A stretch of DNA of 64,000 bases from Ensifer sp. LC11 (lineage in GTDB: Bacteria; Pseudomonadota; Alphaproteobacteria; Rhizobiales; Rhizobiaceae): the NCBI RefSeq assembly GCF_001695835.1, contig NZ_MBSO01000014.1:1-64000 (forward strand), read 5' to 3'. Within the stretch, counting starts at the first letter, position 1. Each line of letters begins with the position of its first letter. Below the pieces are notes generated by a model that was not told where the DNA came from, did no database searches, and was given only the letters and a program-made list of their open reading frames with translations. Made by a program: the position numbers and the translations under genes. Of this stretch, positions 9,744 through 27,647 are shown one piece after another.

Positions 9744-10349
9744 TCAGTCTGCGACGGAATTGTCGGGGGCGACGGAGCCGATGTTGTAGCCTTCGAGCTG
9801 CGCGGCGGTGCTGTCGCGTCGCGGGAAATGCAGGATGGTTGCGGTGCCCGGCGTTACGGGGACGACCCGCGAGGGAGGAAGATCCAGGAACTCGTGGCAG
9901 GCCGCCCGCACGACGCCGCCGTGGGCGACGATCAGCAGGTCCCCTTCCGTGCGGGACATCCAGTCGCGCACGCCTTCCGCCACCCGACCCCGGAAGGCGC
10001 CCCAGGTTTCACCGTTTTCCGGCGTGAAGGTTCCAGCGCGCCAGGCGGCATATTCCTCCGGTCGCTCGGCGATCAGGTCCGGCTTGTGGCGTCCGGTCCA
10101 CTCGCCCATGTCCAGCTCGCGAAACCGCTCGTCGGTCGGTGCGTCCGGATGGCCGATGAGCGCGACCGTCTGTCGGGTCCGGCCGAGATCGGACGCGATG
10201 ATGCGAACCGGCTTGAGTGCCTTGGCATAGGGGCGGAACCGTCTCACCTGCGCGACACCGCGCTCGGACAGGAGAGAGTTGTCCTGGCCCTGGAGGCGTT
10301 GTTCGGCGTTCCACTCCGTTTCGCCGTGGCGCATGAGGATGAGCCTCAT
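9744..10349 (-). CDS. Histidine phosphatase (phosphoglycerate mutase-like)
   Basis: A 201-residue member of the histidine phosphatase superfamily. The N-terminal LMRHGETEWN carries the phospho-accepting His8 next to Arg7. Arg57 in LGRTRQT, Glu78 in FRELDMGEW and His143 in VAHGG complete the usual active site. It has no signal peptide, so it should act in the cytoplasm on a small phosphoester. The start overlaps the stop of the upstream ABC ATPase by four bases (ATGA), so the two are translationally coupled. It is the last gene of the operon rpiR-binding protein-permease-ATPase-phosphatase. The arrangement suggests that the imported ligand is a phosphoester that this enzyme hydrolyses. Confidence 0.85.
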   Translation of the reverse strand: MRLILMRHGETEWNAEQRLQGQDNSLLSERGVAQVRRFRPYAKALKPVRIIASDLGRTRQTVALIGHPDAPTDERFRELDMGEWTGRHKPDLIAERPEEYAAWRAGTFTPENGETWGAFRGRVAEGVRDWMSRTEGDLLIVAHGGVVRAACHEFLDLPPSRVVPVTPGTATILHFPRRDSTAAQLEGYNIGSVAPDNSVAD

Positions 10350-11446
10350 TGATGGATCCTTTCTCCGGTGGCGGCAAAGACCGCATCGGGTGTGCGAATG
10401 AAGGAAAGGGGGATGGGTTCCCCCGGTGTGGCGGTGAAATAACCGTCAGCCATCGCGGTGACGCGCAGCTCGCCGATCATGGCGGTCACCATCGTGCGGC
10501 CGGCGATCGGCGCGGCTTCGGCGAAACGAGCGACAAGCGAAGGCGCTCCGGCAACCGATCCGACACAGACATCCTCTGCGCGATAGAGAAGCTGGACCGC
10601 GTCGTGGCCGGCGGCAAGGGCGGCCGGCGCGAGCGTGGTCTCACCGAAGACCAGCCCGTCGCCCAGGCGACGGACCCCTATCAGATTTGCCGGCGGCGTA
10701 CCAAGAAATGTCGCCACGAAGGTGGTTTGCGGATTGCGCAGGAGGTCGATGGGCTTGCCGAATTGCTCGACGCGACCGTTGTTGAGCACCGCGACATGGG
10801 TCGCCATGGTCATCGCCTCGACCTGATCGTGCGTGACATAGACCGACGTGGCGCCGGTTGCCCGGTGGATACGCATCAGTTCGCTGCGCATTTCGATGCG
10901 CAGCTTGGCGTCGAGGTTCGACAGCGGCTCGTCGAAGAGCAGGATGCTCGGTTCCGGCGCAATCGTGCGGGCAATCGCCACGCGCTGCTGCTGGCCGCCG
11001 GAGATCTCTGCGGGATAGCGTTCGGCGAGCGCATCGATGCCGAGAAGCGAAAGCACTTCCCGGACACGCTTTTCACGTTTCTCTCGCGGCCATTTGGCGA
11101 CCTTCAGCGGCCAGGCGATGTTGCCGGCAACCGTCATGTGCGGCCAGAGCGCATAGCTCTGGAAGACAAGGCCTGCATTGCGCCGGCCGGCATCGGCGAT
11201 CACGCCCCCTGCTCCGCTCGAAACAGTCTGGCCGACGAAGGCGATCTCCCCTTCGCTGGGACCCTCAAGCCCCGCCAGCATGCGCAAGAGGGTGGACTTG
11301 CCGCAACCCGAGGGACCGACGAGCACCAGGAAGGAGCCGGCAGGCACCGAGAGATTGACATCCTTGACGGCGGTGAAGGCACCGAACCGTTTGACGAGAC
11401 TGCGGATGTTGATGGCGTCCGCGGCGCCGGTTGCAAGGGCGTTCAT
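10346..11446 (-). CDS. Iron-type ABC importer ATPase
   Basis: A 366-residue ATP-binding subunit with Walker [10 protein letters not shown], signature SGGQQQRVAIARTIA, Walker [16 protein letters not shown] and the switch His in VTHD. A C-terminal regulatory domain of about 130 residues follows. The type is that of FbpC/PotA ATPases, which serve a single fused permease. The Met at 11446 is preferred over 11458 because it forms an ATGA overlap with the permease stop and has GGAAAAG upstream. It would power import of the ligand bound by the 13248-14369 protein. Confidence 0.88.
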   Translation of the reverse strand: MNALATGAADAINIRSLVKRFGAFTAVKDVNLSVPAGSFLVLVGPSGCGKSTLLRMLAGLEGPSEGEIAFVGQTVSSGAGGVIADAGRRNAGLVFQSYALWPHMTVAGNIAWPLKVAKWPREKREKRVREVLSLLGIDALAERYPAEISGGQQQRVAIARTIAPEPSILLFDEPLSNLDAKLRIEMRSELMRIHRATGATSVYVTHDQVEAMTMATHVAVLNNGRVEQFGKPIDLLRNPQTTFVATFLGTPPANLIGVRRLGDGLVFGETTLAPAALAAGHDAVQLLYRAEDVCVGSVAGAPSLVARFAEAAPIAGRTMVTAMIGELRVTAMADGYFTATPGEPIPLSFIRTPDAVFAATGERIHQ

Positions 11447-13188
11447 GGGCTTTTCCATTTCTGCACGCGGTTCTGCAGGCTGTGGGCGAGGAGCGAGGCT
11501 GCCAGACAGACGACGAGAATGACGAGGGTGATGGCGTTGGCGAACTGCATGAAGCCTTCGGCCGCATAGCGGTAGGCGACCATGCTGAGCACCGGCGAGG
11601 TGGCCGTGAACAGCAGCACGACCAGCGAAAGATCCCGCACCATCTTCACGAAAACGAGGATCGCGCCGGCAAACAGGCCGCGGATCGCCAGCGGGAAGAT
11701 GATCGCGAACAGACGGCGGATCAGTCCCGCACCGGTCAACCGGGCGCTTTCCTCGATATCGGCGGATATCTGGCCGAGCACGGAGCGGCCGGATTGCACG
11801 GCAAAGGGCAGGTTATGGGCGGATGCCGCGATCACGAGCAAGGCGAAGGTACCGTAGAGCGAGGGCAGCGGTCCGATCGGTGCCCCGAAGAGCGCGATAT
11901 AGGCAGCGGCAAAGGCGATGCTCGGCACCAGAAGCGGCAGGAAGGCAAGCTGGCTGAGCACCGTCGCAAGCAGACTGCCGCGCCGTTGCACGATGGTGTA
12001 GGCAAGCGCCAGGCCGAGCAGCATCGTCGTGAAGGCGACGACCAGGCCGAGGCGGATGGTGTTCCAGAGGGCTTCGATCAGCACCGGGTTGCGGAAGATG
12101 CCCGCCTGACCCTGTGCGATCTCGCCGCCGCCCTCCCCGATCCAGAAATGCAGCGTCCAGTTGGAAAACAGCGCTCCGCTCTGCGGCGCGAGGCTTGACG
12201 CGGCAAGCACGAGGACCGGCAGGACGGTTGTGAGGAGTCCGATCACGGCTGCGACCACAAACAGCGGCCAGCGCCAGGCGCCGAGCGGGAAGCGTTTGGT
12301 CCGGCCGCCCTTGCCCGTCACGGTGACGAAGGCCTTGCGGCCCGAGACGATACGGTCCGAGAGCCAGAGGAACAGCGCCGAGACGGCGATGAGCAGCAAT
12401 GCCAGGACAAAGCCGCGCTCGTTCTGCCCCGTCTCGATCATGCCGAACAGGCGGGTGGAGAGCGTTTGCATGCGCACCGGCAGGCCAAGCAGCGCGGGTG
12501 CGGCGAAATTGGCGACGGCGCCGGCAAAGGTCAAGGACGCGGCGGCGATCAGCGCCGGAGTGACGACCGGCAGGATGATGCCGAAAAAGATGCGCGGGCG
12601 CTTGGCGCCGGCCATCTGCCCGGCCTCCACGAGATCGGCGCCGACCGAGCTGAGCGCTGCGGCGATGATCGTGTAGGCGAGCGAATAATAGTGCGCGATC
12701 AGCACAATCGCCGTCGGGATAAGACCCCAGGCCAGCCAATCGGGAATGCCAAGGCCGCCGGTTTCAAAGAAACCGGCCGAGCCGCCGAGCCGGGAATTGC
12801 GAAACAGCGTCCCCCAGGCGAGCGCTGCGGCGAAGCTCGGGATCATATAGGGAAGCGTCGCCATCAGGCCGAGGAAGCGGCGCCCCGGGACGTCGGTCAT
12901 CACCACCAGCCAGGCAAGAAAGCCGCCGATCAGCAGACAGCCGCCGCCGACGCTGAAGCCGAGGATCATGGTGTTGAGGAGCGGCCGCCACCAGAGATTG
13001 GCGGACAACGGGCTGACGAGCACCGCCTTCCAGGCGGCGATCCCGTCTGGGGTCAGTGTGGTAACAAGGATGCGCAGCAGCGGCGCCACCACGAGCACGG
13101 CGACGATGGCAACCAGGATGGCCGGCAGGAGAAAGCCTGATCGGAGCAGCCGGCTGCCCGATGGCGCTGATATCGATATGGATGTCAT
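11443..13188 (-). CDS. Fused iron-type ABC permease
   Basis: A 581-residue inner-membrane permease made of two fused halves of about six membrane segments each, as in FbpB/AfuB/ThiP-type systems. Each half has its ATPase-docking EAA-like loop: DLVEAGQMAGAKRPRIFFG in the first and DIEESARLTGAGLIRRLFA in the second. The Met at 13188 is chosen because the sequence before it is hydrophilic and short. It lies between its binding protein and its ATPase in one minus-strand operon. Confidence 0.87.
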   Translation of the reverse strand: MTSISISAPSGSRLLRSGFLLPAILVAIVAVLVVAPLLRILVTTLTPDGIAAWKAVLVSPLSANLWWRPLLNTMILGFSVGGGCLLIGGFLAWLVVMTDVPGRRFLGLMATLPYMIPSFAAALAWGTLFRNSRLGGSAGFFETGGLGIPDWLAWGLIPTAIVLIAHYYSLAYTIIAAALSSVGADLVEAGQMAGAKRPRIFFGIILPVVTPALIAAASLTFAGAVANFAAPALLGLPVRMQTLSTRLFGMIETGQNERGFVLALLLIAVSALFLWLSDRIVSGRKAFVTVTGKGGRTKRFPLGAWRWPLFVVAAVIGLLTTVLPVLVLAASSLAPQSGALFSNWTLHFWIGEGGGEIAQGQAGIFRNPVLIEALWNTIRLGLVVAFTTMLLGLALAYTIVQRRGSLLATVLSQLAFLPLLVPSIAFAAAYIALFGAPIGPLPSLYGTFALLVIAASAHNLPFAVQSGRSVLGQISADIEESARLTGAGLIRRLFAIIFPLAIRGLFAGAILVFVKMVRDLSLVVLLFTATSPVLSMVAYRYAAEGFMQFANAITLVILVVCLAASLLAHSLQNRVQKWKSP

Positions 13189-13202
13189 GTGAGAGCCTCG
13201 GC

Positions 13203-13239
13203 GCAGGTCGGCAGGCATGACAATGCATTGCCGACCTGC
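13203..13239. repeat. Intercistronic hairpin after binding-protein gene
   Basis: GCAGGTCGGCA at 13203-13213 is the exact reverse complement of 13229-13239. On the minus strand it follows the stop codon of the binding protein and precedes the permease start, where a stem-loop could protect the upstream mRNA and reduce permease expression. Confidence 0.55.
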
Positions 13240-13247
13240 GGCTTTCG

Positions 13248-14369
13248 TTATTGGAGCGTGATGATCAGGTCGGCGATGCGACCGCGTGCAGCTGCCGTCT
13301 TGGCCGGGTCGATGGTCCAGGCTTTCAACTCCCCGAGTTTGACCGAGTCCGGATGGTCGGCGATCGTCTTGCGGGTCGCGTAATCACCGGGAACATTGAA
13401 GGGTTCGAAGCCAGGGCCACCGCTCGGCGTGTCGTCGCCAAACATGAAATCGACCAGCAGTCGCGCCGCCGCCGGATGGGGAGCCTTGTCCGCGACCGTC
13501 AGCACCGCCGGAAAGAGAATTCCGTTGGCCGGTTCGACGTTGTTGGCGATCTGCAGCGCCCAGCCTTCCTTCTCGTTGTCACGCCGGTCGGAATAGGTGC
13601 CGAAACCGACAGGCGGGTTCTTGGCATTGACGTCGCCGATCGACTTGTTCAGCACGTCGCTGTTGGGAAGGAGGATCAGATCATTGGCGAACAGGTTCCT
13701 GATGAATTGCTCGCCGGCGCCCTGAAGGTCCGCATCCACTTCGATCTCCTTGCCGAAATGCGCCCTGTAGGCGGCGGCCATCTCGTCCGGATGCAGCGCG
13801 ATCTCGGTCAAGAGGTCGAGCAGCTCGCCGCGCTGGCTCGGGTCGACCATCAGCACCCGGCCCTGCCATTCCGGTTGCGTGAGTTGCCACAGGTTGGTGA
13901 CGGGCGAACCATCAGGAAAGGCCTTTTCGTTGTACATCAGCACCTTGGTCGAAAGACGCTGCGTGAGAAGCGGCCCCTTGTAGCGATCCTCCAATTCATT
14001 CGCCACGCGCGGCGGCACGTAGTTCACGATCCGCTTCCCTTCCAGGAGCTTGGTGAAGACGACGGGCGTATCGGCGATATAGAGCACGTCGACCGCGTGG
14101 ACGCCGGCCTGCTGCTCGGCCTCGAGGCGAGCGATCTGCTTGGTCGAGCTCATGTCGAGGCCGATCAGGTCGATGCCCGGATATGCATCCTCGAAGGCCT
14201 TCTCGATCTTGGCGATGCGGCTCGACAAGGAAAAGACGGTGACGCTCCCCTCCTTCTGCGCGAGCGGCAACAACTGTTGTGGCGTCATGCCGTCGAGATC
14301 GGACGCCATCGCAAACGACGGCAGGACGAAACACGCGGCAAGCGCGGCATTGCTCAGTCTTTTCAACAT
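13248..14369 (-). CDS. Iron-type ABC substrate-binding protein
   Basis: A 373-residue periplasmic binding protein with a clear signal peptide (ending AMA, near residue 22). The fold is that of the FbpA/AfuA group (TKQIARLEAEQQAGVHAVDVLYIAD, later SPVTNLWQLTQPEWQGRV). It contains no adjacent Tyr-Tyr pair, the dyad that holds ferric iron in true FbpA proteins, so iron is unlikely as ligand. It is the second gene of the operon, 26 bases after the RpiR regulator, and ends before the hairpin at 13203-13239. Because the operon ends with a cytoplasmic phosphatase, a phosphorylated ligand is my inference. Confidence 0.85.
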   Translation of the reverse strand: MLKRLSNAALAACFVLPSFAMASDLDGMTPQQLLPLAQKEGSVTVFSLSSRIAKIEKAFEDAYPGIDLIGLDMSSTKQIARLEAEQQAGVHAVDVLYIADTPVVFTKLLEGKRIVNYVPPRVANELEDRYKGPLLTQRLSTKVLMYNEKAFPDGSPVTNLWQLTQPEWQGRVLMVDPSQRGELLDLLTEIALHPDEMAAAYRAHFGKEIEVDADLQGAGEQFIRNLFANDLILLPNSDVLNKSIGDVNAKNPPVGFGTYSDRRDNEKEGWALQIANNVEPANGILFPAVLTVADKAPHPAAARLLVDFMFGDDTPSGGPGFEPFNVPGDYATRKTIADHPDSVKLGELKAWTIDPAKTAAARGRIADLIITLQ

Positions 14370-14395
14370 GTTCTTCTCCTCCCTTATAATTCCCC

Positions 14396-15232
14396 TCAGT
14401 CGAAGTCGTTGAACAGCTCCGACAGCTTCTCCAGCCTGCCGATCACCTGCCCCTGGTGGCGGCCGGCAATGGTCAGGACGATGGCATTGACGATCGCAAA
14501 GGGGATCGTCGGTGTCTGGAATTCGCTGCCCGAACGCCCACGTGGTGCCGAGAGCATCAGATCCGCGGCGGGCTCCATCAGCGGGCCGGCGAGATCGGAA
14601 ACGAGGATCGATTGCGCACTGACGCGGTTCGCATGTCGCACCAGCGGTCCATAGCTTTGCGGCTGCTTGCGAAACGCCAGCGCCACCACCAGGTCACCGG
14701 CGTCCATGCCGACCAAACGTTCAGCAATGTCCCGGCCGCGACCGGTCAATAGGATCGTGGTCATGCCGAAGCGATCGAGCCGGCGCTGCAGGAAGCCAGC
14801 GACCGATTGCGCGTGGCCCTGTCCGAAGATGTAGACGCGACGTGCGGCAAAGATCAGATCCGCTGCCCTGTCGATCTCCGCTTGCTCTACCGATCTTGCA
14901 AGCGTTTCGAGTGCGGCGATCTCGGCCGCAATCAGATCCGTCAGGTAGTCGCCGTGCTCGACCTTCGAGACCGAGCGACGCATCCGGTTTGCGGCATCCT
15001 GATCGTCCAGGACTTCCCTCTGCAGCTGCGCGCGAAGGTCCGGAAAGCCCTTGTAACCGAGCTTTTGCGCAAGCCGCGTGGCGGTCGCCTCATGGACGGT
15101 TGCCCGCTGCGAAAGCTGCGGGCCGGACAAAAACGCCGCTTCCGCCCTGTTTTCCAGCATGGTGGCGATCAGTCTCTGGTCGGCCTCGGTCAGCCGTCTG
15201 GAATGCGCCTTTATGCGATCGAGTATCGTCAT
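14396..15232 (-). CDS. MurR/RpiR-family regulator with SIS domain
   Basis: A 278-residue regulator. Residues 1-77 are the RpiR helix-turn-helix domain (LSQRATVHEATATRLAQKLGYKGFPDLRAQL); residues about 125-260 are a sugar-isomerase (SIS) domain starting RRVYIFGQGHAQSVAGFL. SIS domains of this family bind phosphosugars or related phosphorylated compounds. It heads the operon containing the binding protein, permease, ATPase and histidine phosphatase, so it is the likely local regulator. Two palindromes at 15312-15327 and 15456-15471 upstream are operator candidates. Confidence 0.87.
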   Translation of the reverse strand: MTILDRIKAHSRRLTEADQRLIATMLENRAEAAFLSGPQLSQRATVHEATATRLAQKLGYKGFPDLRAQLQREVLDDQDAANRMRRSVSKVEHGDYLTDLIAAEIAALETLARSVEQAEIDRAADLIFAARRVYIFGQGHAQSVAGFLQRRLDRFGMTTILLTGRGRDIAERLVGMDAGDLVVALAFRKQPQSYGPLVRHANRVSAQSILVSDLAGPLMEPAADLMLSAPRGRSGSEFQTPTIPFAIVNAIVLTIAGRHQGQVIGRLEKLSELFNDFD

Positions 15233-15502: not shown

Positions 15503-16153
15503 TCAGGTTTCACCCGCTTCGATCGCGCGCGCCCATGCGGCCGCGCGTCGGGCGGACTCGGCCAAGACAGGCTTGGGTGCCTTGTACCATTCGTCCTCGA
15601 GGAGGCCTCGCCTGTCGCGAACAAAGGCGATCGCGGCCTCCAGCGTTGGAAATTCGGACGGCAGCGTCAGATGCAGAAACAGCGACACGACGACGACCGA
15701 GCGCGAGCGCCCGCCCCGGCAGTTGACGAGGATGCCGCCGCGCTCGCGCCGCGGATAGGACGGTTTCTCCGGCAGGATCTGCTCCAGCGCGGCCCGCAGG
15801 ATGTAGTGCGCCGCGAGCATCTGGGTGTCCGGATTTCCATCGCCGTCGATAAGCCCGATCTTGTAATAGCGGATCTCGCCGGGACCATGGACGCTGTTGC
15901 GATGGTCGGAGACAAGCTGCGGCTGGCAGACGAAGTTGAAATCCAGGTTGACCGCGCAATTGACGACGGTGGTGATGCCATTGCTGCGCAGGAGCTCAAG
16001 GTCGCTTGCACCTTCCTTGCCGGCGATGAAGATGTCGACGCCATAAGCCGGATGCTGGGCGTAGATGAGGCTAAGCCTCGCAAGCTCTCTGCTGGTCTTG
16101 CCGGCGGTCACCGCATCGGACGGGCTGTCGTGCACGCTGTCCTTATGCGTCAT
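15503..16153 (-). CDS. Dual-specificity-type phosphatase (copy 1)
   Basis: A 216-residue protein with the Cys-phosphatase signature VNCRGGRSRS: Cys145, five residues, then Arg151, as in dual-specificity and protein-tyrosine phosphatases. A candidate general acid is in GLIDGDGNPD (about residues 100-109). There is no signal peptide, so action in the cytoplasm is expected. Members of this fold dephosphorylate proteins but also inositol phosphates and phosphoinositides. Its ATG overlaps the stop of the inositol-monophosphatase gene by four bases (ATGA), and both close the ABC operon that starts at 22457. A paralog in the same partnership is at 26132-26752. I infer a small-molecule substrate from the context. 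Confidence 0.82.
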   Translation of the reverse strand: MTHKDSVHDSPSDAVTAGKTSRELARLSLIYAQHPAYGVDIFIAGKEGASDLELLRSNGITTVVNCAVNLDFNFVCQPQLVSDHRNSVHGPGEIRYYKIGLIDGDGNPDTQMLAAHYILRAALEQILPEKPSYPRRERGGILVNCRGGRSRSVVVVSLFLHLTLPSEFPTLEAAIAFVRDRRGLLEDEWYKAPKPVLAESARRAAAWARAIEAGET

Positions 16154-17061
16154 GGGGTCGGTGTCCTGGCCGTCCGGCCATCGGAGATGGCTTGGGCGAC
16201 GCGATTTAATGTCGGATAATCGGCGCCGGCACCATAGGCGAGGTAGCCGGGGCAGAGGTAATCGGCTGAATCGGCTGGCACTTTGCCAAGCGTCAGCGGC
16301 TGATAGCGACCGCCGGCATTCTTCAGGATGAGCGTGGCAGCGGCGACGTCCCAGGCGTTGACACCGAAACCGGCGGCCGCGTCGACGAACCCTGCCGCCA
16401 CATGGGCGATGCTGAGAGCGGCGCTGCCGGGCCGGCGCACGGTCGAGAAGGTTTCGACCAGTTCGCCGAAGCGGCTGAGCGCGACAACCCGGCCATCAAG
16501 GCGAAAGTCGCGCGAAACGGGATAGCCGGTGATCAGGGTTGCGCGGCTCTCCTCGCTCACCGACTTCGAGGCGATGACCTTTCCGTTGAGATAGGAGCGC
16601 CTGATATCGCTTGAAAAGAGCAGGTCGGCGACTGGGTCGTAGACCACTCCCGCCACGACGGCGCCCTGTTCGACCGCGGCGATCGAAACGCACCAGAAGG
16701 CGAGACCCCGCGCGAAGTTCGCCGTGCCGTCGATGGGGTCGACATACCACTGGATCTCACCCTCCCCGACCTGGCCGCCTTCCTCGCCGAGCATGGCCGA
16801 GTTCGGTTCGCTCTCAAAGATGAAGTCGCGGATCAGGGCTTCGGCGTTTCTGTCGTGGATCGTCACCACGTCGTGCAGATCGCGCTTGTAGTCGACTGTC
16901 ATCTCCGAGCGAAAGGCCGCAAGCAGTGGTGCCCCGGCGGCACGGGCTGCACCCTCGGCGATCCTCGTCAGGTGGCGTGAGCGGTTGAGCCCGTCCTCGT
17001 CAACCGAGGTCCGCAGGCCCACCGCCGGATTGGCGTTGTTCATGCTTTTCTTTCCGTTCAT
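16150..17061 (-). CDS. Inositol-monophosphatase-family protein (copy 1)
   Basis: A 303-residue member of the Mg2+-dependent, Li+-sensitive phosphatase family. The metal-binding motifs are all present: GEE at 92-94, DPIDGT at 108-113 and the C-terminal NAWDVAA with Asp238. Family members hydrolyse inositol phosphates, fructose 1,6-bisphosphate, histidinol phosphate or PAP, so the exact substrate is open. Two Met codons (1 and 7) are possible starts. The gene follows the binding-protein gene after a strong hairpin (17069-17109) and is translationally coupled to the dual-specificity phosphatase downstream. The location inside an importer operon implies processing of the imported compound. Confidence 0.86.
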   Translation of the reverse strand: MNGKKSMNNANPAVGLRTSVDEDGLNRSRHLTRIAEGAARAAGAPLLAAFRSEMTVDYKRDLHDVVTIHDRNAEALIRDFIFESEPNSAMLGEEGGQVGEGEIQWYVDPIDGTANFARGLAFWCVSIAAVEQGAVVAGVVYDPVADLLFSSDIRRSYLNGKVIASKSVSEESRATLITGYPVSRDFRLDGRVVALSRFGELVETFSTVRRPGSAALSIAHVAAGFVDAAAGFGVNAWDVAAATLILKNAGGRYQPLTLGKVPADSADYLCPGYLAYGAGADYPTLNRVAQAISDGRTARTPTP

Positions 17062-19473: not shown

Positions 19474-20607
19474 TCAGTTCAACATGTTCTTGCGCAAAAG
19501 CGCGTCCGCCTCGGTGATGCGCTGGCCGTCCTTGTCGAAGACGTGCAGCGCCTCGGGTGGAGCAAAGAAAGAGACCTTGGATCCGGTCTCGACGTGCGGC
19601 AGGGCGCTGGTCGTCAGGAAGAGCGTATCGCTGTCGTTCCTGAGCTCCAGGATCCAGCTGCCGCCGGTCGGCAGAACGCCGGTCACCGTCATTTCGCCGG
19701 AAAAGCTCCCCGCTGGCACATGCTCGCGATTGACCAGGTAGCCGATTGCCTCCGGCCGGATGCCGATCGAGCCGATGCCGCGCAGCGACGGATGGCGCGC
19801 GCCGAGAAAGGCTTCGGCGGCGCGTGACAGCTCCGAGGCCGCCGGCGATCCGACGGTCAGGATGTTGATCGGCGGGCTGCCGACGAACTCCGCAACGAAA
19901 CGGTTTGCCGGACGGTCGTAGATATCGTTCGGCGTTCCCATCTGCTGCAGCGTGCCCTCGTCCATGACCGCGATCGTCGTTGCCAGCGTCATCGCCTCCC
20001 ACTGGTCGTGGGTCACAAAGACGATCGTCGTCTTGAACTCCTTGTGGATGCGCTTGAGCTCGGCGCGCATTTCGAGGCGCAGCCGCGCGTCGAGGTTCGA
20101 AAGCGGTTCGTCGAGCAAGAGCACGCCCGGATTGACTGCAAGCATTCGAGCGAGCGCCACGCGCTGCTGCTGTCCGCCGGAAAGCTGCGACGGGTAGCGA
20201 TCGCGATACTTGGCGATGTCGAGGGCCTGCATAACCTTCTCGACTCGTTGCTCGCGTTCCTCCTTCGGCAGCTTGCGCAGGCGCAGCCCGAAGTCGGTGT
20301 TGCGTTCGATCGTCAGGTGCGGCCAGAGCGCATAGCTTTGGAAGACGAGCCCCATCTCGCGCTTTTCGGGCGGAACGAACACCCCTGCCCTCACCGAGTC
20401 GACCACCCGCTCGCCGATGCGGATTTCACCGTCGGAGAGGTTTTCAAGGCCGGCGATCATTCTGAGGGTTGTGGTCTTGCCACAGCCTGAGGGGCCGAGA
20501 AGGCACATGAATTCGCCGTCGCGGATTTCAAGGTCGAGATTGGAAACTGCGTTAGCCGAATTGACGCCGTAGTTCTTCTGGGCGCCGCTGAGATTGATGG
20601 TGGGCAT
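19474..20607 (-). CDS. Iron-type ABC importer ATPase
   Basis: A 377-residue ATP-binding subunit: Walker A GPSGCGKTT, signature SGGQQQRVALARMLA, Walker [15 protein letters not shown], switch His in VTHDQWEAM, then a C-terminal regulatory domain. Its start overlaps the permease stop by one base. It is the partner of the fused permease at 20607-22457 and serves both tandem binding proteins. Confidence 0.88.
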   Translation of the reverse strand: MPTINLSGAQKNYGVNSANAVSNLDLEIRDGEFMCLLGPSGCGKTTTLRMIAGLENLSDGEIRIGERVVDSVRAGVFVPPEKREMGLVFQSYALWPHLTIERNTDFGLRLRKLPKEEREQRVEKVMQALDIAKYRDRYPSQLSGGQQQRVALARMLAVNPGVLLLDEPLSNLDARLRLEMRAELKRIHKEFKTTIVFVTHDQWEAMTLATTIAVMDEGTLQQMGTPNDIYDRPANRFVAEFVGSPPINILTVGSPAASELSRAAEAFLGARHPSLRGIGSIGIRPEAIGYLVNREHVPAGSFSGEMTVTGVLPTGGSWILELRNDSDTLFLTTSALPHVETGSKVSFFAPPEALHVFDKDGQRITEADALLRKNMLN

Positions 20608-22457
20608 CAGCTTCCGAGTCCTTCTGCGAGATTGGTCTTGGTCAGCTTCTGGGCTGCCAGCGTTCCGAGATAGGCGATGGCCGCGATGATCAGTACGACG
20701 GCGTTGGCGGCTTGCGTGTAGTGGTAGTCGACGAGCCTGAGCGAATAGGTGGTCAGAACATCGGTGCTCGGCACGGCGAGGATGACGAAGAGGCTCAGCC
20801 CCTTGATGCCGGAGATGAAGGGCAGCAGCACACCGGTGACGAGCGAGCCCTTCTGGATCGGGATGACGATCGAGATCATTCGCCGGAACCAGCCCGCGCC
20901 GGCGATCTGGGCCGCTTCTTCGGGGTCCTTGCCGAGCTGCGTCATGGCGGAAATGCCGGCCCGCGAGGCATAGGGCATCTGGTCGGCGATCAGCGCCAAG
21001 ATGAGGATGGTAACCGTGCCGTAGAGCGCGGGCATCGGTCCGCGCGGCACGGCAAAGAGCGAGAGATAGGCGGCGGCAAAGGCGATGCCGGGCACCAGAT
21101 AGGGCAGGAAAGTGACCTGCCGTAGATAGACCGACAGGGCCTTTACCGGTGTGCGGATGACGACGTAGCCGACGAGCAGCCCGAGAATGCCGGAGGTCAG
21201 CGACGCGAGGCCGACGATGACAAGCGTGTTCTTGGCGGCTGCCCAGAGGTCGGGGCTCAACAGCACCCCGGTCTGCAGGGCCACCGTGTGGAGATCACGG
21301 CCGATCCAGTAGTCCAGCGTGAAGTTGTCGAGCGTGAATTGCGCTGGCAGCTTCATGACGGTGGACAGGAACAGGGTGAGCAACGGCAGCCCGACGCTCA
21401 AAAGGAAGATCAACGCGGCAAAGCCCGTTGCCGGCAGGCGATATTTTCCGAGCCGGCTCTGGCGGTTCATCGAACCCTTGGAGCCGACGGTCACGAAGCG
21501 TCTGGCCTCGCGGACAAGTCGGGCGTCGATCATCAGGGTGATGATGCCGATCAGCATGATCGAGGCCGCAACGACACCGGCAACGCCGGTCTGGCGCGAC
21601 GCGATGCTGCGGAAGAGCGAGGTGGAGAGCACCTCGAACTTCACCGGCAGCCCGAGCACATAGGGCACACCAAACTCGCCGAGGCACTTGGCGAAGATCA
21701 GCACCATCGAGGACAGCAGTGCCGGCCGCATCAGCGGCAGGATGATCTGCAGCGCCACCTGGTAACGCTTCGCGCCAAGGATGCGGGCCGAGTCCTCAAG
21801 TTGGGAATCGAAGCGGCGAAGCGCCGAGCCGAACAGCAGGATGACGAACGGGGTATAGTGCAACGCCAGGATGACGATGATCGGGAAGCGGCCATAGGCA
21901 ACCCAGTCCGGCGGCGTCAGCCCCATGGCCTCGAACCAGCCCGGCTGGCCGCCGACCGTGCGGTTCTTGAAAAGTGTGGTCCAAGCGAGCGCGAAGGTCC
22001 AGGCCGGCAGCATATAGGGCACGATCAGCGCGGTTGCGAACCAGCGCCGCCCGAACATGTCGGTTCGGCTGATCAGCCAGGCCAGCACCGTGCCGATCAG
22101 GAGCGACAGGCTGATCGCCCCCATTGCCACCGACAATGTGTTGAGAAGCGGCCGCCAGAAGAGGTCGACCGAAACCGGCGACAGGAACGCCCGGTCGAGA
22201 TAGTAAAGCGTAAGGTCCCCGAAATCCTTACCGAGCCGCCGCTCATGCCCGAACTGGACCCGGACAGCGTCGAGCACGATCGAGATGATCGGCACGACGA
22301 TGAGATAGGTGAACAAAAGGGCGGTCAAAACGCCGATCAGCGTTGTCGGTTCCCGGGAGGCGACCTTCATGCGATAGCGCCAGCGCTGCCATGTCGTCGG
22401 CGCCATTGCCTCGACCGGCACTGCGGATCCCTTGGCTGTTTCTGTCACTAAGGCCAT
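20607..22457 (-). CDS. Fused iron-type ABC permease
   Basis: A 616-residue permease with two six-helix halves; the ATPase-docking loops are QLEDSARILGAKRYQVALQ and DPEEAAQIAGAGWFRRM. The Met at 22457 is preferred because AAGGGGAAG precedes it; the frame stays open to 22532. This is the first gene of a six-gene minus-strand operon reaching 15503. The 590-base upstream region contains the operator-like sites at 22711-22757. Confidence 0.87.
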   Translation of the reverse strand: MALVTETAKGSAVPVEAMAPTTWQRWRYRMKVASREPTTLIGVLTALLFTYLIVVPIISIVLDAVRVQFGHERRLGKDFGDLTLYYLDRAFLSPVSVDLFWRPLLNTLSVAMGAISLSLLIGTVLAWLISRTDMFGRRWFATALIVPYMLPAWTFALAWTTLFKNRTVGGQPGWFEAMGLTPPDWVAYGRFPIIVILALHYTPFVILLFGSALRRFDSQLEDSARILGAKRYQVALQIILPLMRPALLSSMVLIFAKCLGEFGVPYVLGLPVKFEVLSTSLFRSIASRQTGVAGVVAASIMLIGIITLMIDARLVREARRFVTVGSKGSMNRQSRLGKYRLPATGFAALIFLLSVGLPLLTLFLSTVMKLPAQFTLDNFTLDYWIGRDLHTVALQTGVLLSPDLWAAAKNTLVIVGLASLTSGILGLLVGYVVIRTPVKALSVYLRQVTFLPYLVPGIAFAAAYLSLFAVPRGPMPALYGTVTILILALIADQMPYASRAGISAMTQLGKDPEEAAQIAGAGWFRRMISIVIPIQKGSLVTGVLLPFISGIKGLSLFVILAVPSTDVLTTYSLRLVDYHYTQAANAVVLIIAAIAYLGTLAAQKLTKTNLAEGLGS

Positions 22458-23046
22458 GCTCTTCCCCTTGGAACCCAACATGCGCAATGTGCCGCGGCGC
22501 TTGACGCCGGACACAACGTTCAGAAATGCCAACGGGGAAACAGAAATCAGGCGCTACGGGATGGCGCTGACATCGGCAAAAAAACGCGCGCAGACCCAGT
22601 GCAATCGGGTCTGACGGGCATCCACTCCTCCCCGTTCGCAGGCAGGCGCCGATGGCCTGTCAATGTCGGCTCCGGCTCCTCAACCGTGCCGCCGTCGCTA
22701 CGAACATAGATGGAACAAGCATTCCAAATTGGCGCCATCTATGGAATGCATGATCCAATGAGGAGGTCTCCTTGTCAACAAAAAAATGCACACGTGAGCA
22801 ATGATCTAATTTATTGTTTTATTTGATATTTTTTCATAGGTGATATATCGGTTTACGAACACGTGATCACAGTGGGTTCGGCGCAATATTCCGGAACTCT
22901 CGGTTGTCAAGAATTCGCAGCGATCCGCGGGGGTGTTTCAGGGCGGCTGTTCGGGTTGGCTGAGGGCGCTCGCTCGCACTTTTTCGTTGGAATGGGTCGG
23001 CTTTTGTGGCCCTGATGGAAACTGTCTGATTCTGCAGGGGAAAGGC
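22458..23046. other. Divergent regulatory region, AT-rich centre
   Basis: The region between the permease operon (minus) and the LacI gene (plus) holds no gene. It has an AT-rich core at about 22800-22860, two CACGTG hexamers at 22791-22796 and 22860-22865, and paired operator-like palindromes at 22711-22757. This is the layout of a controlled divergent promoter. Confidence 0.6.
22705..22757. promoter_or_regulatory. Paired GGAA-N6-TTCC type operator candidates
   Basis: TGGAACAAGCATTCCA at 22711-22726 is a palindrome with the form GGAA-N6-TTCC. TGGAATGCATGATCCA at 22742-22757 has the same form with one mismatch and matches the reverse complement of the first at 14 of 16 bases. Their centres are 31 bases apart, about three helical turns. 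A perfect 9-base inverted repeat (CATAGATGG at 22705-22713 and CCATCTATG at 22735-22743) overlaps both. GGAA-N6-TTCC is the motif described for IolR, the RpiR-family repressor of inositol catabolism in S. meliloti. Confidence 0.55.
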
Positions 23047-24036
23047 ATGGCAAGAGGCTTCGTGACGGCTGAAGAGGTTGCAAAACGCGCGGGCGTTTCG
23101 CGTTCTGCCGTATCGAGAACCTTTACACCCGGCGCGAGCGTCTCTCAGACGGTGCGGCGCAAGGTGCTGAAGGCCGCGCGGGAACTCGGCTACCGGGTCA
23201 ACCGGCTGGCGCAGGGGCTCAACAACGACCGCTCCAACCTCATCGGCGTCGTCGGCGCCAATCTCAGCGCGCCCTTCCATGCCAAGCAGCTTGATCTCTT
23301 AAGCATCGGTCTGCTGCGCCGCGGCTTGCAATGCCTGCTCCTCAATGCCGCAGACGCGCGCAAGGACATCGCGCCGCTGATCGAGCTTCTCTTCGAATTC
23401 CGGGCGCAGGCCATCATCGTCCTCTCGGGCGAGCCGCCGGAATCGATCGTCGACCAGTGCATCGCCAATGGAGTCAGGCTGATCCTCATCAACCAGAAAA
23501 TTGATCGCACCGACACCAGCATGGTGCTGAGCGACGATTCCCGCGGTGCGGATCTTGCTGCGCTGCGCCTGATTGAGGCGCGATGTAAGAAGGTGGCGGT
23601 CGTTTCGAGCGGCAGCCACACGCCTGCGCAGGTTCGCCGCACCACCGCATTCAAGCAGAAGATGGCAACGGCCGGCATCGAGGTGGTGGCCTGGTCGGGC
23701 GGCACGACGAGCTACGAGAGCGGTTATCAGGCCGGTTGCGAACTGCTCGTGGACGAGGCGATCGACGGCGCTTTCTGTGTCACCGACCTCTTGGCGCTCG
23801 GTTTTCTCGATGCGGCGCGCACCGAAATGCACCGGCGCGTTCCGGCCGATCTTTCCGTCGTCGGCTTCGACGACATCCCGCAGGCGGGCTGGAAGAGTTA
23901 TGAACTGACCACCGTCGCTCAATCCTTCACCGCGCTGACGGACCACGTTCTGACGGCGCTTGAGTCCGATGAAATGGAAACCCGGCTTCAGGTGGTGCCC
24001 GTCACCATGGTCGAGCGCAAGACCGCCCGCCGCTAG
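23047..24036 (+). CDS. LacI-family transcriptional regulator
   Basis: A 329-residue regulator. The N-terminal LacI helix-turn-helix is clear (TAEEVAKRAGVSRSAVSRTF, then the hinge region RKVLKAARELGYRVN), followed by a periplasmic-binding-protein-like sensor domain that ends with VVGFDDIPQAGWKSYELTTVAQ. The Met at 23047 is chosen because AGGGGAAAGG precedes it and it starts the DNA-binding domain; the frame extends upstream to 22933. It is divergent from the permease operon at 15503-22457 and is a likely regulator of it. The ligand is unknown. Confidence 0.88.
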   Translation: MARGFVTAEEVAKRAGVSRSAVSRTFTPGASVSQTVRRKVLKAARELGYRVNRLAQGLNNDRSNLIGVVGANLSAPFHAKQLDLLSIGLLRRGLQCLLLNAADARKDIAPLIELLFEFRAQAIIVLSGEPPESIVDQCIANGVRLILINQKIDRTDTSMVLSDDSRGADLAALRLIEARCKKVAVVSSGSHTPAQVRRTTAFKQKMATAGIEVVAWSGGTTSYESGYQAGCELLVDEAIDGAFCVTDLLALGFLDAARTEMHRRVPADLSVVGFDDIPQAGWKSYELTTVAQSFTALTDHVLTALESDEMETRLQVVPVTMVERKTARR

Positions 24037-24076
24037 TTTACGCCGCTTCAAGTGATTTCACCCTGAGCGGGATACT

Positions 24077-24427
24077 CTAGGTGCGGTGACCGAGGGTCTG
24101 GTCCGCCGGATATGGTTCTCGACCGGGAGCCGCCTTGTTCCTGCCGCGCAGCAACTCCGTGCGGAAAAGCTGCTGAAAGGACGCATAGCTTTCAAAGCCG
24201 AGATCGCCGACGAAGCGCATAACCGTCGTCGTCGAGACGCCGCTGCAACTGGCCACTTCCCGCGCGCTGGCAAAGGCGACGTCGTAGGGATGGGAGAGCA
24301 CAAATTTCGCCACCTCCAGACGGCCGCCCTTCAGCCGGCTTGCACCGATGCGGCAGGTTTCCCTCAACGCGACGAAGGTCTGCGGCGGAGCGTCGGAGGG
24401 GAGCAGGACGGAAGCGTGTTGCTCCAT
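24077..24427 (-). CDS. HTH-only RpiR-like protein
   Basis: A 116-residue protein holding only the RpiR-type helix-turn-helix domain (residues about 30-95: GGRLEVAKFVLSHPYDVAFA, SCSGVSTTTVMRFVGDLGF, SYASFQQLFRTELL). The SIS sensor domain that normally follows is missing; the frame ends after a short basic tail. It starts two bases after the stop of the metallophosphoesterase gene and so is the last gene of the operon beginning at 27647. It may be a truncated regulator, or a genuine small DNA-binding protein that recognises GGAA-N6-TTCC-type sites such as those at 22711. Confidence 0.7.
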   Translation of the reverse strand: MEQHASVLLPSDAPPQTFVALRETCRIGASRLKGGRLEVAKFVLSHPYDVAFASAREVASCSGVSTTTVMRFVGDLGFESYASFQQLFRTELLRGRNKAAPGREPYPADQTLGHRT

Positions 24428-24429
24428 GA

Positions 24430-26139
24430 TCAGGCGGCCTCCTCTTTGCCAGATGCGCCTTCGATGACGATGCGAAGGCTGCCGGCCTCCGCGCGATTGA
24501 GGAAGGCACCGAAGGCGCCGAAGAAGATTGAAAGGAAGCCTGATGTCGACCCGTCCCAGCCCATCTCGGGAGGACGACCGAAGCGCTCTGCGAGCGCCCG
24601 ATAGAGCCGGCGGCGCGTCTCAGGGATCTTGTCGAGCGCCAGCACCGCCGCCTGGCGCAGGCAGTACCAATCGGCGATCACTTCGAGCATGTCGAGGCGC
24701 GCCAACGACGGCGCATCCTTCGGCGCGCCCGGCGAGATCGTGCGAAGTACGCTCTCGAATGCGCCCGCACCGGCCAAGAGTTCGCAGACCTCCTCCACAG
24801 CAAGTTCGGAGACGGCGTCGACGACGGCCTTCGGCCATTCCTTCGGGAAGTATCGATGCTCGACGAGGGCACGCTTGTGCGCCTTCAGGAACGATCCGTA
24901 GTCAGAGGCGTCGAAGGCGCGATCCCGCCCCTCGCCTGACCGGACCATTTCGCGCTGATAAGCAAACAGGACTCGCGGGTCGATCGCTGTGGACGACAGC
25001 TCGACTGTTTCGATGGAGGAGCCCGTCATCGATGGCTCGACGATCTTGAAGGCCGACGGAAAGGCCACAAGCGACGGCACGGCGATGTTGGTGAGAGAGC
25101 GGCCGCCCCATTCTCGACGGGTCACACCCTCGACATGCAGATGACCGCTGAAATGCACGGTCATGTCCGCGCCGATAAGGGCTTGAGCAACGGCTTCGCG
25201 CGGCGTTCGGCGGGCAATATTTGTCTCGCCGAAAAGCACGCCTTCGGCTCCGGTTGCTCCGTCGAAGGGATCAAGCACCGGATAATGCGAGAACGCGAGA
25301 AGCGTTTTGCCGAGGGTTTCTGCCCGCGCCGACACGTCGGCAATCCAGTCGATGATGAACGGCTTCAGAAGAACGAGCGCGTTCCAGCCGGCGGCGGTGC
25401 TGTCGACGAAGGCTGCCTCGTCACCGATTTCGAACTTGCCGTCGCGTGGCTCGAATACGTTGGCGTCGATCATCATCAGCCATAGGCCAGGCTCCGGCTC
25501 GACCAGATAGGACGCGTCCATCAGCGTGTAGCGATTGAGGCCATCGGGCGATGAGACGGCGTAAAGGCGGTCCTCGACCTTGTCGGACTGGCCAAACGGC
25601 GTTTCCCAGTGAATATCGTCGGCTCTTCGAAAATAGCCGAAAGCGGCCATGGGGGTCAGCCCCGCCGGATAGCCTTCGCAATACATGCCGGGCGTAACGT
25701 AGGTTCCGTGGCCAGCTTTCTCCTCATCGCTGGTGACGAAGACCCTGGCGCCGCTCGCATCGAGGAACTGTTTCGTGTGGTGCCGTCCCTTCGGGCCGAA
25801 GATGTCGTGGTTACCGGGAAGCGCATAAAAACGCGTCCCATGCAGACGTTCGTGTCGGTTGAGGATGATGCGGGTGCGTTCGGTCGCCACCCTCTGCCCG
25901 TCATCGGTGTAATCGCCGAGGAGAACGACGTGGCGAATGCCGCGCCGGGATACTTCCGCCAGCGCCTCGTCCAGCGCCCTGGCGCTCTCGTTGAAAACAC
26001 GGGTGGATTCACGCGTGTCGGCCCAGCTCCTGACGGCCAGCTTTTCGCCATCGATCTCGATGGCGGGAAACGCGAAGTCGCCCTCCAGATCATGAAAATG
26101 GGCATCGGCGATGACGGCGATCCGTGGAAAATCAGACAT
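24430..26139 (-). CDS. Metallophosphoesterase, calcineurin-like
   Basis: A 569-residue enzyme with the full calcineurin-like set of metal motifs: IADAHFHD (about residues 9-16), LLGDYTDDG, LPGNHDIFG, AFSHYP and the C-terminal FSGHLHVEG. There is no signal peptide, so it should be cytoplasmic. The catalytic domain takes up the first about 360 residues; the last about 200 have no domain I recognise. The frame extends upstream to 26442, but that part is the antisense of the neighbouring phosphatase gene; the Met at 26139 begins the catalytic motif. It overlaps the stop of the phosphatase gene at 26132 by eight bases. Phosphodiesterase activity, for example on a glycerophospho-compound, would fit the operon but is not shown by sequence. 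Confidence 0.85.
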   Translation of the reverse strand: MSDFPRIAVIADAHFHDLEGDFAFPAIEIDGEKLAVRSWADTRESTRVFNESARALDEALAEVSRRGIRHVVLLGDYTDDGQRVATERTRIILNRHERLHGTRFYALPGNHDIFGPKGRHHTKQFLDASGARVFVTSDEEKAGHGTYVTPGMYCEGYPAGLTPMAAFGYFRRADDIHWETPFGQSDKVEDRLYAVSSPDGLNRYTLMDASYLVEPEPGLWLMMIDANVFEPRDGKFEIGDEAAFVDSTAAGWNALVLLKPFIIDWIADVSARAETLGKTLLAFSHYPVLDPFDGATGAEGVLFGETNIARRTPREAVAQALIGADMTVHFSGHLHVEGVTRREWGGRSLTNIAVPSLVAFPSAFKIVEPSMTGSSIETVELSSTAIDPRVLFAYQREMVRSGEGRDRAFDASDYGSFLKAHKRALVEHRYFPKEWPKAVVDAVSELAVEEVCELLAGAGAFESVLRTISPGAPKDAPSLARLDMLEVIADWYCLRQAAVLALDKIPETRRRLYRALAERFGRPPEMGWDGSTSGFLSIFFGAFGAFLNRAEAGSLRIVIEGASGKEEAA

Positions 26140-26752
26140 CGGTACTGGTCTCCGCGCGAGATGCTTCCACGAGATCGATCCAGGCCGAAGCACGGTGCGC
26201 GGCTTCATAGAGCATCGGCTTTGGCGTCTCGAACCACTCGTCCGGCCGCAGCTCCCTGTGCTCGCGGATATGGCTGACGGCGGCGTCGAGCGTCGGAAAC
26301 AGATGCGGCTGCTGCTTGTGCAGGAAAAGGGCGACCAGGGAGACGGAACGGCTGCGGCCGCCGCGGCAGTTGACAAGGACGTTGCCGCCGTCGGTGAAAG
26401 GATAGGTCGCGCGCTTCGGCATCCTCTGACGCAGGGCGCCATCGAGAATGTAATAGGCGCCGAGCATCATCGTGTCGGGACTGCCGTCTCCGTCAATCAT
26501 GCCGAGCTTGTAGTAGCGAATGTCGGCATAGCCGCTCGCACACAGATCGTCATTGACGGCTATTTCCTCTTCACGAACGAGATTGATGTCCAGATTGATC
26601 GCGCAGTTGACGACTATGGTAATGCCGTGGCGCTTGAGCAGGTCCAGATCACGCGCGCCATCGCTGCCGCCGATATAGAGATCGGCGTTGTGGGGCCTGA
26701 GGCCGGTGGCAATCAGGCTGATCGCGGGCCGCGGATAAACCGGTGCATCCAT
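26132..26752 (-). CDS. Dual-specificity-type phosphatase (copy 2)
   Basis: A 206-residue paralog of the 15503-16153 phosphatase. The signature VNCRGGRSRS places Cys129 and Arg135 in the active site; GITIVVNCAINLDIN and YYKLGMIDGDGSPDT are shared with copy 1 almost word for word. It lies between an inositol-monophosphatase gene (55 bases upstream) and the metallophosphoesterase. The repeated pairing with an IMPase-family enzyme suggests the two act in sequence on the same compound. Confidence 0.82.
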   Translation of the reverse strand: MDAPVYPRPAISLIATGLRPHNADLYIGGSDGARDLDLLKRHGITIVVNCAINLDINLVREEEIAVNDDLCASGYADIRYYKLGMIDGDGSPDTMMLGAYYILDGALRQRMPKRATYPFTDGGNVLVNCRGGRSRSVSLVALFLHKQQPHLFPTLDAAVSHIREHRELRPDEWFETPKPMLYEAAHRASAWIDLVEASRAETSTDV

Positions 26753-26807
26753 TACAAATTCCTCTTCATCGGCGAAGGCGCCGTCCGCCCGCTTGTCTCA
26801 CGGTCGT

Positions 26808-27647
26808 TCATGCCAGCTGAAGCTTAGCGCCGTGTTCCCGGCCCTCGATCGGAATGCCCGAGGCTTCACTCACGCCGCGCGCGATCGCTGGGGTCGAAGC
26901 AAGAACAGGCCCACCATCGCGAAGGTTGCCGATCTCCATGAACGGACACACGACGCCGCCGGCTTCAGCGACAAGCAAGAGCCCGGCCAGGCAATCCCAG
27001 GCGTTCATATGCAGTTCGACATAGGCGTCCGAGCGCCCGTCGGCGACATAGGCGAGCGCCATGGCCCCCGAAGCGCCGCGACGCACATTGGCACCCTTGT
27101 CGAGCATCTGCCGCATCGTTTCGAGAAAAGTTTCGTCGGGCACCCGCCGTGACCATCCCATTTCAACGGAAGCGGCATCGAAGGCTGCCGTCGGCGAGAC
27201 CTTGATCGGCTTGTCGTTGAGCGTTGCTCCGGCGCCCCGTCGGCAAAAATAGAGCTCGTCCTGGGCCGGATTGTAGATCGCGCCGATCTCCGCCCTGTCC
27301 TCCTCGACATAGGTGATCGAGATGCAGAAATGGGGGATTCCGCGGGCAAAGTTTGCTGTGCCATCTACCGGATCCACGACCCATACGCGCTCGGCGATCG
27401 AGCCGCCGCCCTCCTCTCCCCAAAATGCATCGCCCGGAAAATGTTCGGCGATTGCCTGGCGGATGTGGGCTTCGGACGCCGCGTCGGTTTCCGTCAGAAA
27501 ATCCTGCGGCCCCTTCATCGAGAAGCCGCGCTGTCTGCTTTGCCTGAAACCACTAAGCACGACAGCGCCGGCGGAGCGAATGACGTCTCTGCATAGCGAC
27601 GCTCGCCCCGCGAGGTCATTCGAATAGCGCGGCTTGAAGTCGTTCAT
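26808..27647 (-). CDS. Inositol-monophosphatase-family protein (copy 2)
   Basis: A 279-residue Mg2+-dependent phosphatase. Motifs: WGEEGG (Glu78, Glu79), WVVDPVDGTANFARG (Asp92, Asp95) and MNAWDCLAGLLLVAEAGG near the end. It is the first gene of a four-gene minus-strand operon (IMPase, dual-specificity phosphatase, metallophosphoesterase, HTH protein). Its start has GGAG upstream, and a perfect 14-base inverted repeat lies only 13 bases from the start codon. It is a more distant paralog of 16150-17061. Confidence 0.86.
   Translation of the reverse strand: MNDFKPRYSNDLAGRASLCRDVIRSAGAVVLSGFRQSRQRGFSMKGPQDFLTETDAASEAHIRQAIAEHFPGDAFWGEEGGGSIAERVWVVDPVDGTANFARGIPHFCISITYVEEDRAEIGAIYNPAQDELYFCRRGAGATLNDKPIKVSPTAAFDAASVEMGWSRRVPDETFLETMRQMLDKGANVRRGASGAMALAYVADGRSDAYVELHMNAWDCLAGLLLVAEAGGVVCPFMEIGNLRDGGPVLASTPAIARGVSEASGIPIEGREHGAKLQLA

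Follow-up and report, generated by a model that had tools for sequence, protein, structure and literature searches.

A putative inositol-phosphate importer and its cytosolic phosphatases in Ensifer sp. LC11

Inositol phosphates are breakdown products of plant phytate. Histidine acid phytases and multiple inositol-polyphosphate phosphatases (MINPP) dephosphorylate phytate outside the cytoplasm, and bacteria are generally thought to remove the phosphates there and then to import free inositol. Here we describe a locus of Ensifer sp. LC11 that potentially serves a second route, in which inositol phosphates would be imported and dephosphorylated inside the cell. It lies in a stretch of 64,000 nucleotides (positions 1 to 64,000 of contig NZ_MBSO01000014.1, assembly GCF_001695835.1; hereafter the window) of a 6.2-Mb genome. 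Three operons follow each other on the minus strand in the order C, B and A, and a LacI-type regulator gene is located on the plus strand between C and B. Operons A and B encode ATP-binding cassette (ABC) importers, and all three encode phosphatases.

Several described systems share parts of this locus. AfuABC, an importer of hexose and heptose phosphates, has a binding protein (4r72/4r74) of the same fold as SBP2, a solute-binding protein (SBP) of operon B; it imports phosphorylated compounds and was once predicted to bind iron. However, AfuA and SBP2 are only ~20% identical, and the phosphatases, the LacI regulation and the linkage to inositol catabolism (iol) genes of the present locus do not figure in the available part of the AfuABC description (PMC4546632). 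The pyridoxal-phosphate importer P5PABC shares the binding-protein fold (6wce) and a phosphorylated ligand, but this ligand is a vitamin, and the portion of its description at hand contains no inositol genes (PMC8427247). IbpA-IatA-IatP and the IolR regulon share GGAA-N6-TTCC palindromes with operon B and feed the same iol pathway; unlike the importer proposed here, IbpA-IatA-IatP is a sugar-type ABC importer of free myo-inositol. In the accessible text of the same report it was speculated that a HlyB-family transporter, i.e. another type of transporter, might carry inositol phosphates (PMC2597717). The etli LacI regulator resembles the present one in its LacI type, its inositol link and the pairing of operators within a single intergenic region; two operators were predicted next to its E. 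aridi counterpart. The available excerpt mentions neither phosphatases nor inositol phosphates, and whether that locus is identical with the present one could not be told from it (PMC8877191). Finally, relatives of the AppA/PhyK histidine acid phytases and of MINPP are encoded beside the module in Klebsiella and Vibrio, and the module itself would take up the products of those enzymes. The component families are already known, and the importer is of the AfuA/FbpA-fold class; an inositol-phosphate importer joined to intracellular phosphatases looks undescribed. No bacterial inositol-phosphate importer was described in the titles or abstract openings among the literature matches listed, a search that left out most subscription journals.

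We propose that operons B and C together with the intervening LacI gene encode an FbpA/AfuA-fold ABC importer for lower inositol phosphates (or inositol phosphodiesters) and cytosolic phosphatases that would feed the iol pathway, and we assign this reading a probability of roughly three in four. The substrate was narrowed to inositol phosphates by four observations: linkage to iol genes, linkage to phytase/MINPP-type genes, IolR-type palindromes in the promoter of operon B, and a PTEN/PTPMT1-like P-loop in the dual-specificity-type phosphatases (DSP). The initial annotation had interpreted all three operons as one island that imports a phosphorylated polyol or sugar and dephosphorylates it inside the cell. 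Its core, uptake of a phosphorylated polyol followed by dephosphorylation in the cell, is supported for operons B and C, with an inositol phosphate as the most likely compound, while operon A could not be retained as part of it. All genes that it listed were recovered close to where it had placed them, with intact reading frames and of the expected families.

Operon B starts with Perm2, a fused two-domain ABC permease of 612 aa (20607..22445, minus strand) with BPD_transp_1 in two stretches, followed on the same strand by the ABC ATPase ATP2 (19474..20607), the binding proteins SBP2 (18284..19420; SBP_bac_11, 50.3 bits) and SBP3 (17116..18243; SBP_bac_11, 68.2 bits; 61% identical to SBP2), the inositol-monophosphatase-family enzyme IMPase1 (16150..17046; PF00459, 164.9 bits) and DSP1 (15503..16153). 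According to the family search both permeases of the window are of the fused FbpA/PhnU2 type, with one ATPase each. The best NCBIfam models for the ABC parts are UgpC, PhnT2 and PhnU2 (140.8 bits for Perm2), all under their curated cut-offs, and these names are therefore uninformative. The LacI gene (23047..24036, plus strand) is divergent from operon B. Operon C consists, on the minus strand, of IMPase2 (26808..27647; PF00459, 194.2 bits), DSP2 (26132..26752), a metallophosphoesterase (MPE) of 569 aa (24430..26139; PF00149, Metallophos, 36.4 bits) and an RpiR-like protein of 116 aa that comprises only the helix-turn-helix (HTH) part (24077..24427; 25.9 bits, cut-off 28.3). Both IMPases exceed the PF00459 gathering score.

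The conservation of this gene set was followed in the best 80 of 107 relatives fetched with MPE as query (named loci; L-numbers below denote loci). IMPase2 and/or DSP2 were found beside MPE by sequence match in 40 of the 80, and in 30 of the 80 LacI is divergent from the operon-B permease. The genes of operons B and C co-occur far above chance, and B, C and the intervening LacI gene are one conserved unit. The initial annotation had tied its idea to a conserved co-occurrence of transporters and phosphatases in related genomes; for B and C this co-occurrence is present, and the idea stands in this respect. A B/C-type system is also carried by S. meliloti pSymB, S. medicae and agrobacteria. Most of the 30 LacI-permease loci encode a further component: a full-length sodium/phosphate (Na/Pi) transporter is located between MPE and LacI in 25 of them, the exceptions being L031, L033, L046, L048 and L063. 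The corresponding model is TIGR01013, which the copy in L112 matches with 350.9 bits (cut-off 306.15). The window has no such gene at 24036-24077, and a 61%-identical relative is encoded on another contig of the host genome. A fragment of the gene was noticed in L063 (12027-12500). As neither the window nor L031 has the gene and L063 keeps a fragment only, it seems to be decaying in this lineage.

The phosphatases give a first indication of the substrate. DSP1 scores 27.7 bits and DSP2 33.7 bits against a DSPc cut-off of 33.5, so that DSP1 is sub-threshold; the CX5R loop is intact in both (CRGGRSR in DSP1), and the structure model of DSP2 (pLDDT, the predicted local distance difference test, 78.7) has a DUSP fold. 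The loop C-R-x-G-R-S-R is present in 80 of 84 DSP homologues, some of which come from the same genomes, and is invariant in 26 of 26 aligned rows; the remaining four of the 84 lack the exact loop, and that of L127 has one extra residue. Thereby basic residues occupy positions +1 and +4. The P-loops of PTEN and PTPMT1 are basic at these two positions as well. We take the PTEN/PTPMT1-like loop as support for an inositol phosphate as substrate. Furthermore, histidine acid phytases leave inositol 2-phosphate (Ins(2)P), which would suit the presence of a second, non-IMPase phosphatase. MPE was dropped as a guide to the substrate, as 40 of the 80 named loci have it without IMPase2 and DSP2 and several have it among other neighbours. 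The MPE family has other jobs, and DSP was used as the marker instead. In Phyllobacterium and Shinella (L117-L120), MPE relatives of 45-52% have glycosyltransferase, polysaccharide deacetylase and methyltransferase genes as neighbours, but neither this importer nor an IMPase.

The DSP search revealed a compact module, Perm-ATP-SBP-IMPase-DSP-LacI, that is shared by alpha- and gammaproteobacteria. It was found on plasmids of Klebsiella, Erwinia, Vibrio, Thioclava, Devosia and Shinella and in one gammaproteobacterial genus. IMPase and DSP are fused into one protein in Klebsiella and Erwinia. The distribution is sparse: DSP occurs in 6 of 398 Pseudomonadota genomes (the own genome included) and in 6 of 390 genomes of one gammaproteobacterial order, and MPE in 5 of 249 genomes of the order of the host, counting the own genome and one weak match (E 4e-4). 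Upstream of the importer, Klebsiella encodes a KdgM-type porin and a histidine acid phosphatase. This enzyme belongs to PF00328, and its nearest solved relative is the 3-phytase 2wnh (E 8.5e-82). Vibrio sp. HDW18 has genes for a porin and a phosphatase next to the module and divergent from it; this phosphatase is also a PF00328 member and is of the MINPP type according to its best matches, 6rxd (histidine acid phosphatase) and 7zgf (multiple inositol-polyphosphate phosphatase). Linkage to a phytase/MINPP-type enzyme is thus found in two lineages, and the stretches fetched from Erwinia, Thioclava, Devosia, Shinella and the further genomes of the DSP search showed no relatives of the two phosphatases. 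On the K. pneumoniae plasmid pKP121-2 (L121, 1849-10603) the unit comprises the porin, the AppA-type phosphatase, the FbpA-type importer, the fused IMPase-DSP and LacI. Four plasmid records contain at least 80% of this 8,755-base Klebsiella unit; all four are from K. pneumoniae and cover it to 100%, and megablast gave no match to it in E. coli.

Linkage to iol genes was observed as well. In the gammaproteobacterial genus, DSP is present in 20 of 48 genomes, and 12 of these have iol genes in the 12-20 kb fetched around it. Seven of the twelve have the full module beside the iol genes (L170, L172, L174, L175, L176, L179, L181) and five have DSP without the module (L137, L153, L154, L155, L180). 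The full alphaproteobacterial module is flanked by iol genes in Neorhizobium sp. SHOUNA12A (L048) and in genome G257 (L144). IolG, IolB and IolE exceed the curated cut-offs in L137, L048 and L144, and IolG and IolB do so in L176; the iol genes of the remaining loci were assigned by sequence match to those of these four. Overall, three lineages show linkage of the module or its DSP to iol genes. In a control set, none of 40 loci with MPE alone contains iolG, iolB and iolE, and a few show distant aldehyde dehydrogenases only. The host itself encodes iolG (425.9 bits, cut-off 355) and iolB (337 bits, cut-off 205) on contigs other than that of the window.

For promoter B, the LacI-permease intergenic regions of the window and of the 30 named loci with LacI and the permease side by side were aligned (31 regions). 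Loci L016-L029 are stretches of the genomes of the same genus, several of which duplicate the named loci L030-L037 and L063, and the counts for this promoter were therefore restricted to the 31 regions. In this alignment the start codon ATG of Perm2 at 22445 sits inside a conserved block. Promoter B contains the operator CACGNGTGCA in 23 of 31 loci, and 25 of 39 loci have it ~20-50 nt in front of IMPase2. The background is 0.013 per 300 nt, a figure that includes the sites themselves. The copies in the window are CACGTGTGCA in promoter B (22787..22796, minus strand) and two copies of CACGCGTGCA upstream of IMPase2, the first ~20 nt from the gene at 27665..27674 (plus strand) and the second at 27679..27688 (minus strand); one further match of CACGNGTGCA, at 8161, is unrelated. 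As the same LacI-type operator occurs in both promoters, B, C and the LacI gene appear to form one regulon, with LacI as the putative binder.

Promoter B additionally contains an IolR-type palindrome, GGAA-N6-TTCC, at 22712..22725 and a second, tandem one, GGATCATGCATTCC (read towards operon B), at 22743..22756. The exact palindrome is found in 19 of the 31 promoter-B regions, whereas 200 shuffled sets gave 0.31 on average and 3 at most. A second tandem copy is frequent: 24 of 31 regions have one or more matches to GGAW-N6-TTCC, and 11 have two. GGAA-N6-TTCC was published as the palindrome of IolR, an RpiR-family inositol regulator, in C. crescentus, and it was also detected in front of inositol genes of S. 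meliloti, A. tumefaciens, M. loti and B. melitensis (PMC2597717). IolR was reported in another study as a repressor of inositol catabolism (PMC8877191). In the host, an exact site is also located upstream of an RpiR-type gene near iolE/iolB, which we took as iolR. We regard control of operon B by IolR as likely.

Several observations weigh against the proposed function and are considered together here. The fold of the binding protein does not decide the ligand: the AlphaFold model of SBP2 (pLDDT 88.7) has the FbpA/AfuA/P5PA fold, and iron, metal-citrate, hexose-phosphate and pyridoxal-phosphate binders match it alike; the matches to 7f6s (E 5.4e-15), 8x1a, 4r74 and 6wce all have probability 1.00. 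The top match is the metal-citrate binder MctA, and the others comprise ferric binders, the glucose-6-phosphate binder VcA0625, AfuA and P5PA. The titles of the 50 best fold matches of DSP2 contain no inositol-phosphate phosphatase. No MPE is encoded in the compact modules from Klebsiella, Erwinia, Vibrio and Thioclava, and its relatives elsewhere accompany glycosyltransferase genes. The linkage to iol genes is also limited. Only one of the 80 named MPE loci (L048) has iolG, iolB and iolE within ~10 kb, iol genes are missing from the fetched stretch in 8 of the 20 DSP genomes of the gammaproteobacterial genus, and genomes of one genus are not independent events. With respect to the phytase link, the Klebsiella phosphatase reaches 246.8 bits with the AppA phytase model (cut-off 585) and that of Vibrio HDW18 matches no NCBIfam model, while the host encodes no PF00328 histidine-acid phosphatase, other phytase types not having been searched for. 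Without a PF00328 gene of its own, the host may depend on inositol phosphates released by others. Finally, the exact IolR-type palindrome is missing from 12 of the 31 promoter-B regions and from all 87 stretches upstream of IMPase2; the window alone contains three copies against 1.2 expected (9 of 100 shuffles reach three), the extended form TGGAA-N6-TTCCA is not enriched in the genome (7 sites versus 6 for a reversed control), and the 15 kb fetched around the host iolG showed no exact site. In view of these weaknesses, another regulator may bind the palindrome in promoter B.

Taking both sides into account, the import of inositol phosphates could proceed as follows. A phytase outside the cell would release inositol phosphates; in Klebsiella and Vibrio this might be an own enzyme and in Ensifer perhaps that of others. 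The products would enter the periplasm, where SBP2 or SBP3 would bind them and hand them to Perm2-ATP2 for import. Once inside, they would lose their phosphates to DSP and IMPase in the cytosol, MPE may open phosphodiesters, and the freed inositol would flow into the iol pathway. The Na/Pi transporter of most relatives would dispose of surplus phosphate. YjbB-like Na/Pi proteins have a role in phosphate export, and this would suit use of the substrate as carbon source. It is attractive to go one step further and to regard the module as a horizontally spread, complete system that eats phytate breakdown products intact: a porin and a phytase in some hosts, a dedicated importer of the ABC type that carries inositol (poly)phosphates, a cascade of cytosolic phosphatases, of which the basic-P-loop DSP acts on polyphosphates or on the axial 2-phosphate, and Na/Pi-dependent phosphate export, the substrate being a carbon source and not only a phosphorus source. 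We consider the odds of this extended version about even. If the proposal is true, nitrogen-fixing symbionts, agrobacteria and some plasmid-bearing enterobacteria possess a second route to inositol that consists of a dedicated importer and intracellular phosphatases. In that case many operons annotated as 'iron ABC transporter' would receive a new annotation, for which this study supplies named genes and a ligand class.

The most probable of the alternatives concerns the bond that is cleaved first. The main substrate might be an inositol phosphodiester such as glycerophosphoinositol or a cyclic inositol phosphate, on which MPE would act before IMPase and DSP. In Rhizobiaceae and Shinella, MPE indeed shares one operon with IMPase and DSP, where it would be superfluous for simple monoesters. 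On the other hand, the compact modules named above manage without MPE, and two of these MPE-free systems pair with phytase-type enzymes, which make monoesters. We therefore regard phosphodiesters as a doubtful main substrate.

A second possibility is that the importer takes up hexose or heptose phosphates like AfuABC and that the phosphatases free the sugar, the iol and phytase neighbours being coincidental. SBP2 shares its fold with AfuA and VcA0625, IMPase-family enzymes can be broad sugar phosphatases, and sugars or their phosphates are frequent effectors of regulators of the LacI and RpiR families. In addition, the variant cluster L127 encodes a haloacid dehalogenase (HAD) enzyme that is nearest to beta-phosphoglucomutase and fructose-1-phosphatase models, albeit below cut-off. 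However, linkage to iol and phytase/MINPP genes recurs in separate lineages, promoter B carries IolR-type palindromes, and no hexose-phosphate catabolic gene recurs beside the module in the annotated regions, the annotation of which is incomplete. Taken together, this makes hexose phosphates an improbable substrate.

The view of the initial annotation that all three operons form one functional island was not borne out. Operon A encodes, on the minus strand, an RpiR regulator (14396..15232) with HTH_6 and a weak SIS match (21.7 bits, cut-off 25), SBP1 (13248..14369; SBP_bac_11, 27.7 bits), the fused permease Perm1 (11443..13191), the ATPase ATP1 (10346..11458) and a histidine phosphatase (9744..10349; His_Phos_1, 156 bits) whose nearest model is CobC at 109 bits, below cut-off. 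The three operons are physically adjacent in the window. Yet of the 16 genomes of the genus SBP1 is present in 14 and MPE in 15, and in the 13 other genomes that hold both they are never close (separate contigs in eight, at least 0.38 Mb apart on one contig in five). We rejected a single three-operon island from these genus-wide positions. Likewise, 10 of 14 fetched stretches extend 3.4-8.7 kb beyond DSP1 and show no operon-A gene there, the shared LacI operator has no match near operon A in the window, and the five-gene operon A occurs without adjacent B/C in S. meliloti pSymA, Shinella, Nitratireductor and Devosia. Besides the adjacency, one observation favours a functional connection: L079, L088, L092 and L093 contain a single operon LacI-IMPase2-Perm-SBP-ATP-DSP2-MPE, in which the place of the operon-B importer is taken by one nearer to that of operon A (permease and SBP 36-41%). 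All in all, a common island is very unlikely, and operon A is a separate conserved unit that is adjacent to B/C in this genome and probably unrelated to them.

The weakest alternative, a ferric importer or an importer of iron chelates such as Fe-inositol phosphate, draws on the fold, the top match MctA and the permease annotation 'iron ABC transporter permease', but is hardly credible, because the operon partners are phosphatases, the regulators are LacI and RpiR types with no iron regulator seen in the operons of the window, and, as far as a weak profile alignment shows, proteins of the SBP2 family have Phe and another hydrophobic residue opposite the tyrosine pair of YfuA. This tyrosine pair provides the iron ligands of FbpA. 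The iron reading was set aside as unlikely on partner genes, regulators and aligned tyrosines; the fold search alone does not decide.

Operon A itself encodes an AfuABC-like importer, the substrate of which is probably also phosphorylated. The presence of an operon-A-like importer in the phosphatase operon of L079, L088, L092 and L093 is a hint in this direction. The neighbours of operon A include fructose bisphosphate aldolase in Shinella, and class 1 fructose-bisphosphatase and phosphogluconate dehydratase in Devosia. As operon A adjoins such sugar-phosphate genes elsewhere, its substrate may differ from that of B/C.

Variants of the module were also noticed. In Pannonibacter (L128) and in members of the family of the host (L140-L142) the order is LacI-ATP-SBP-Perm, a gene of ~1.1 kb and DSP; the ~1.1-kb gene of L128 encodes a metallo-beta-lactamase (MBL)-fold hydrolase, and the SBP of this variant was recognised by BLAST only in L140 and by annotation in L128. 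The R. leguminosarum plasmid pR132504 (L127, 1-9609) combines an FbpA-type permease and ATPase, the HAD phosphatase, a LacI-type regulator, two NUDIX hydrolases, a YvcK-like gene, an IMPase and a DSP. A second FbpA-type permease-ATPase pair (permease ~25%, ATPase 43-47% identity) is located beside the module in L124, L127, L185, L057 and L078, and in four of these five it is followed by an IMPase-like gene.

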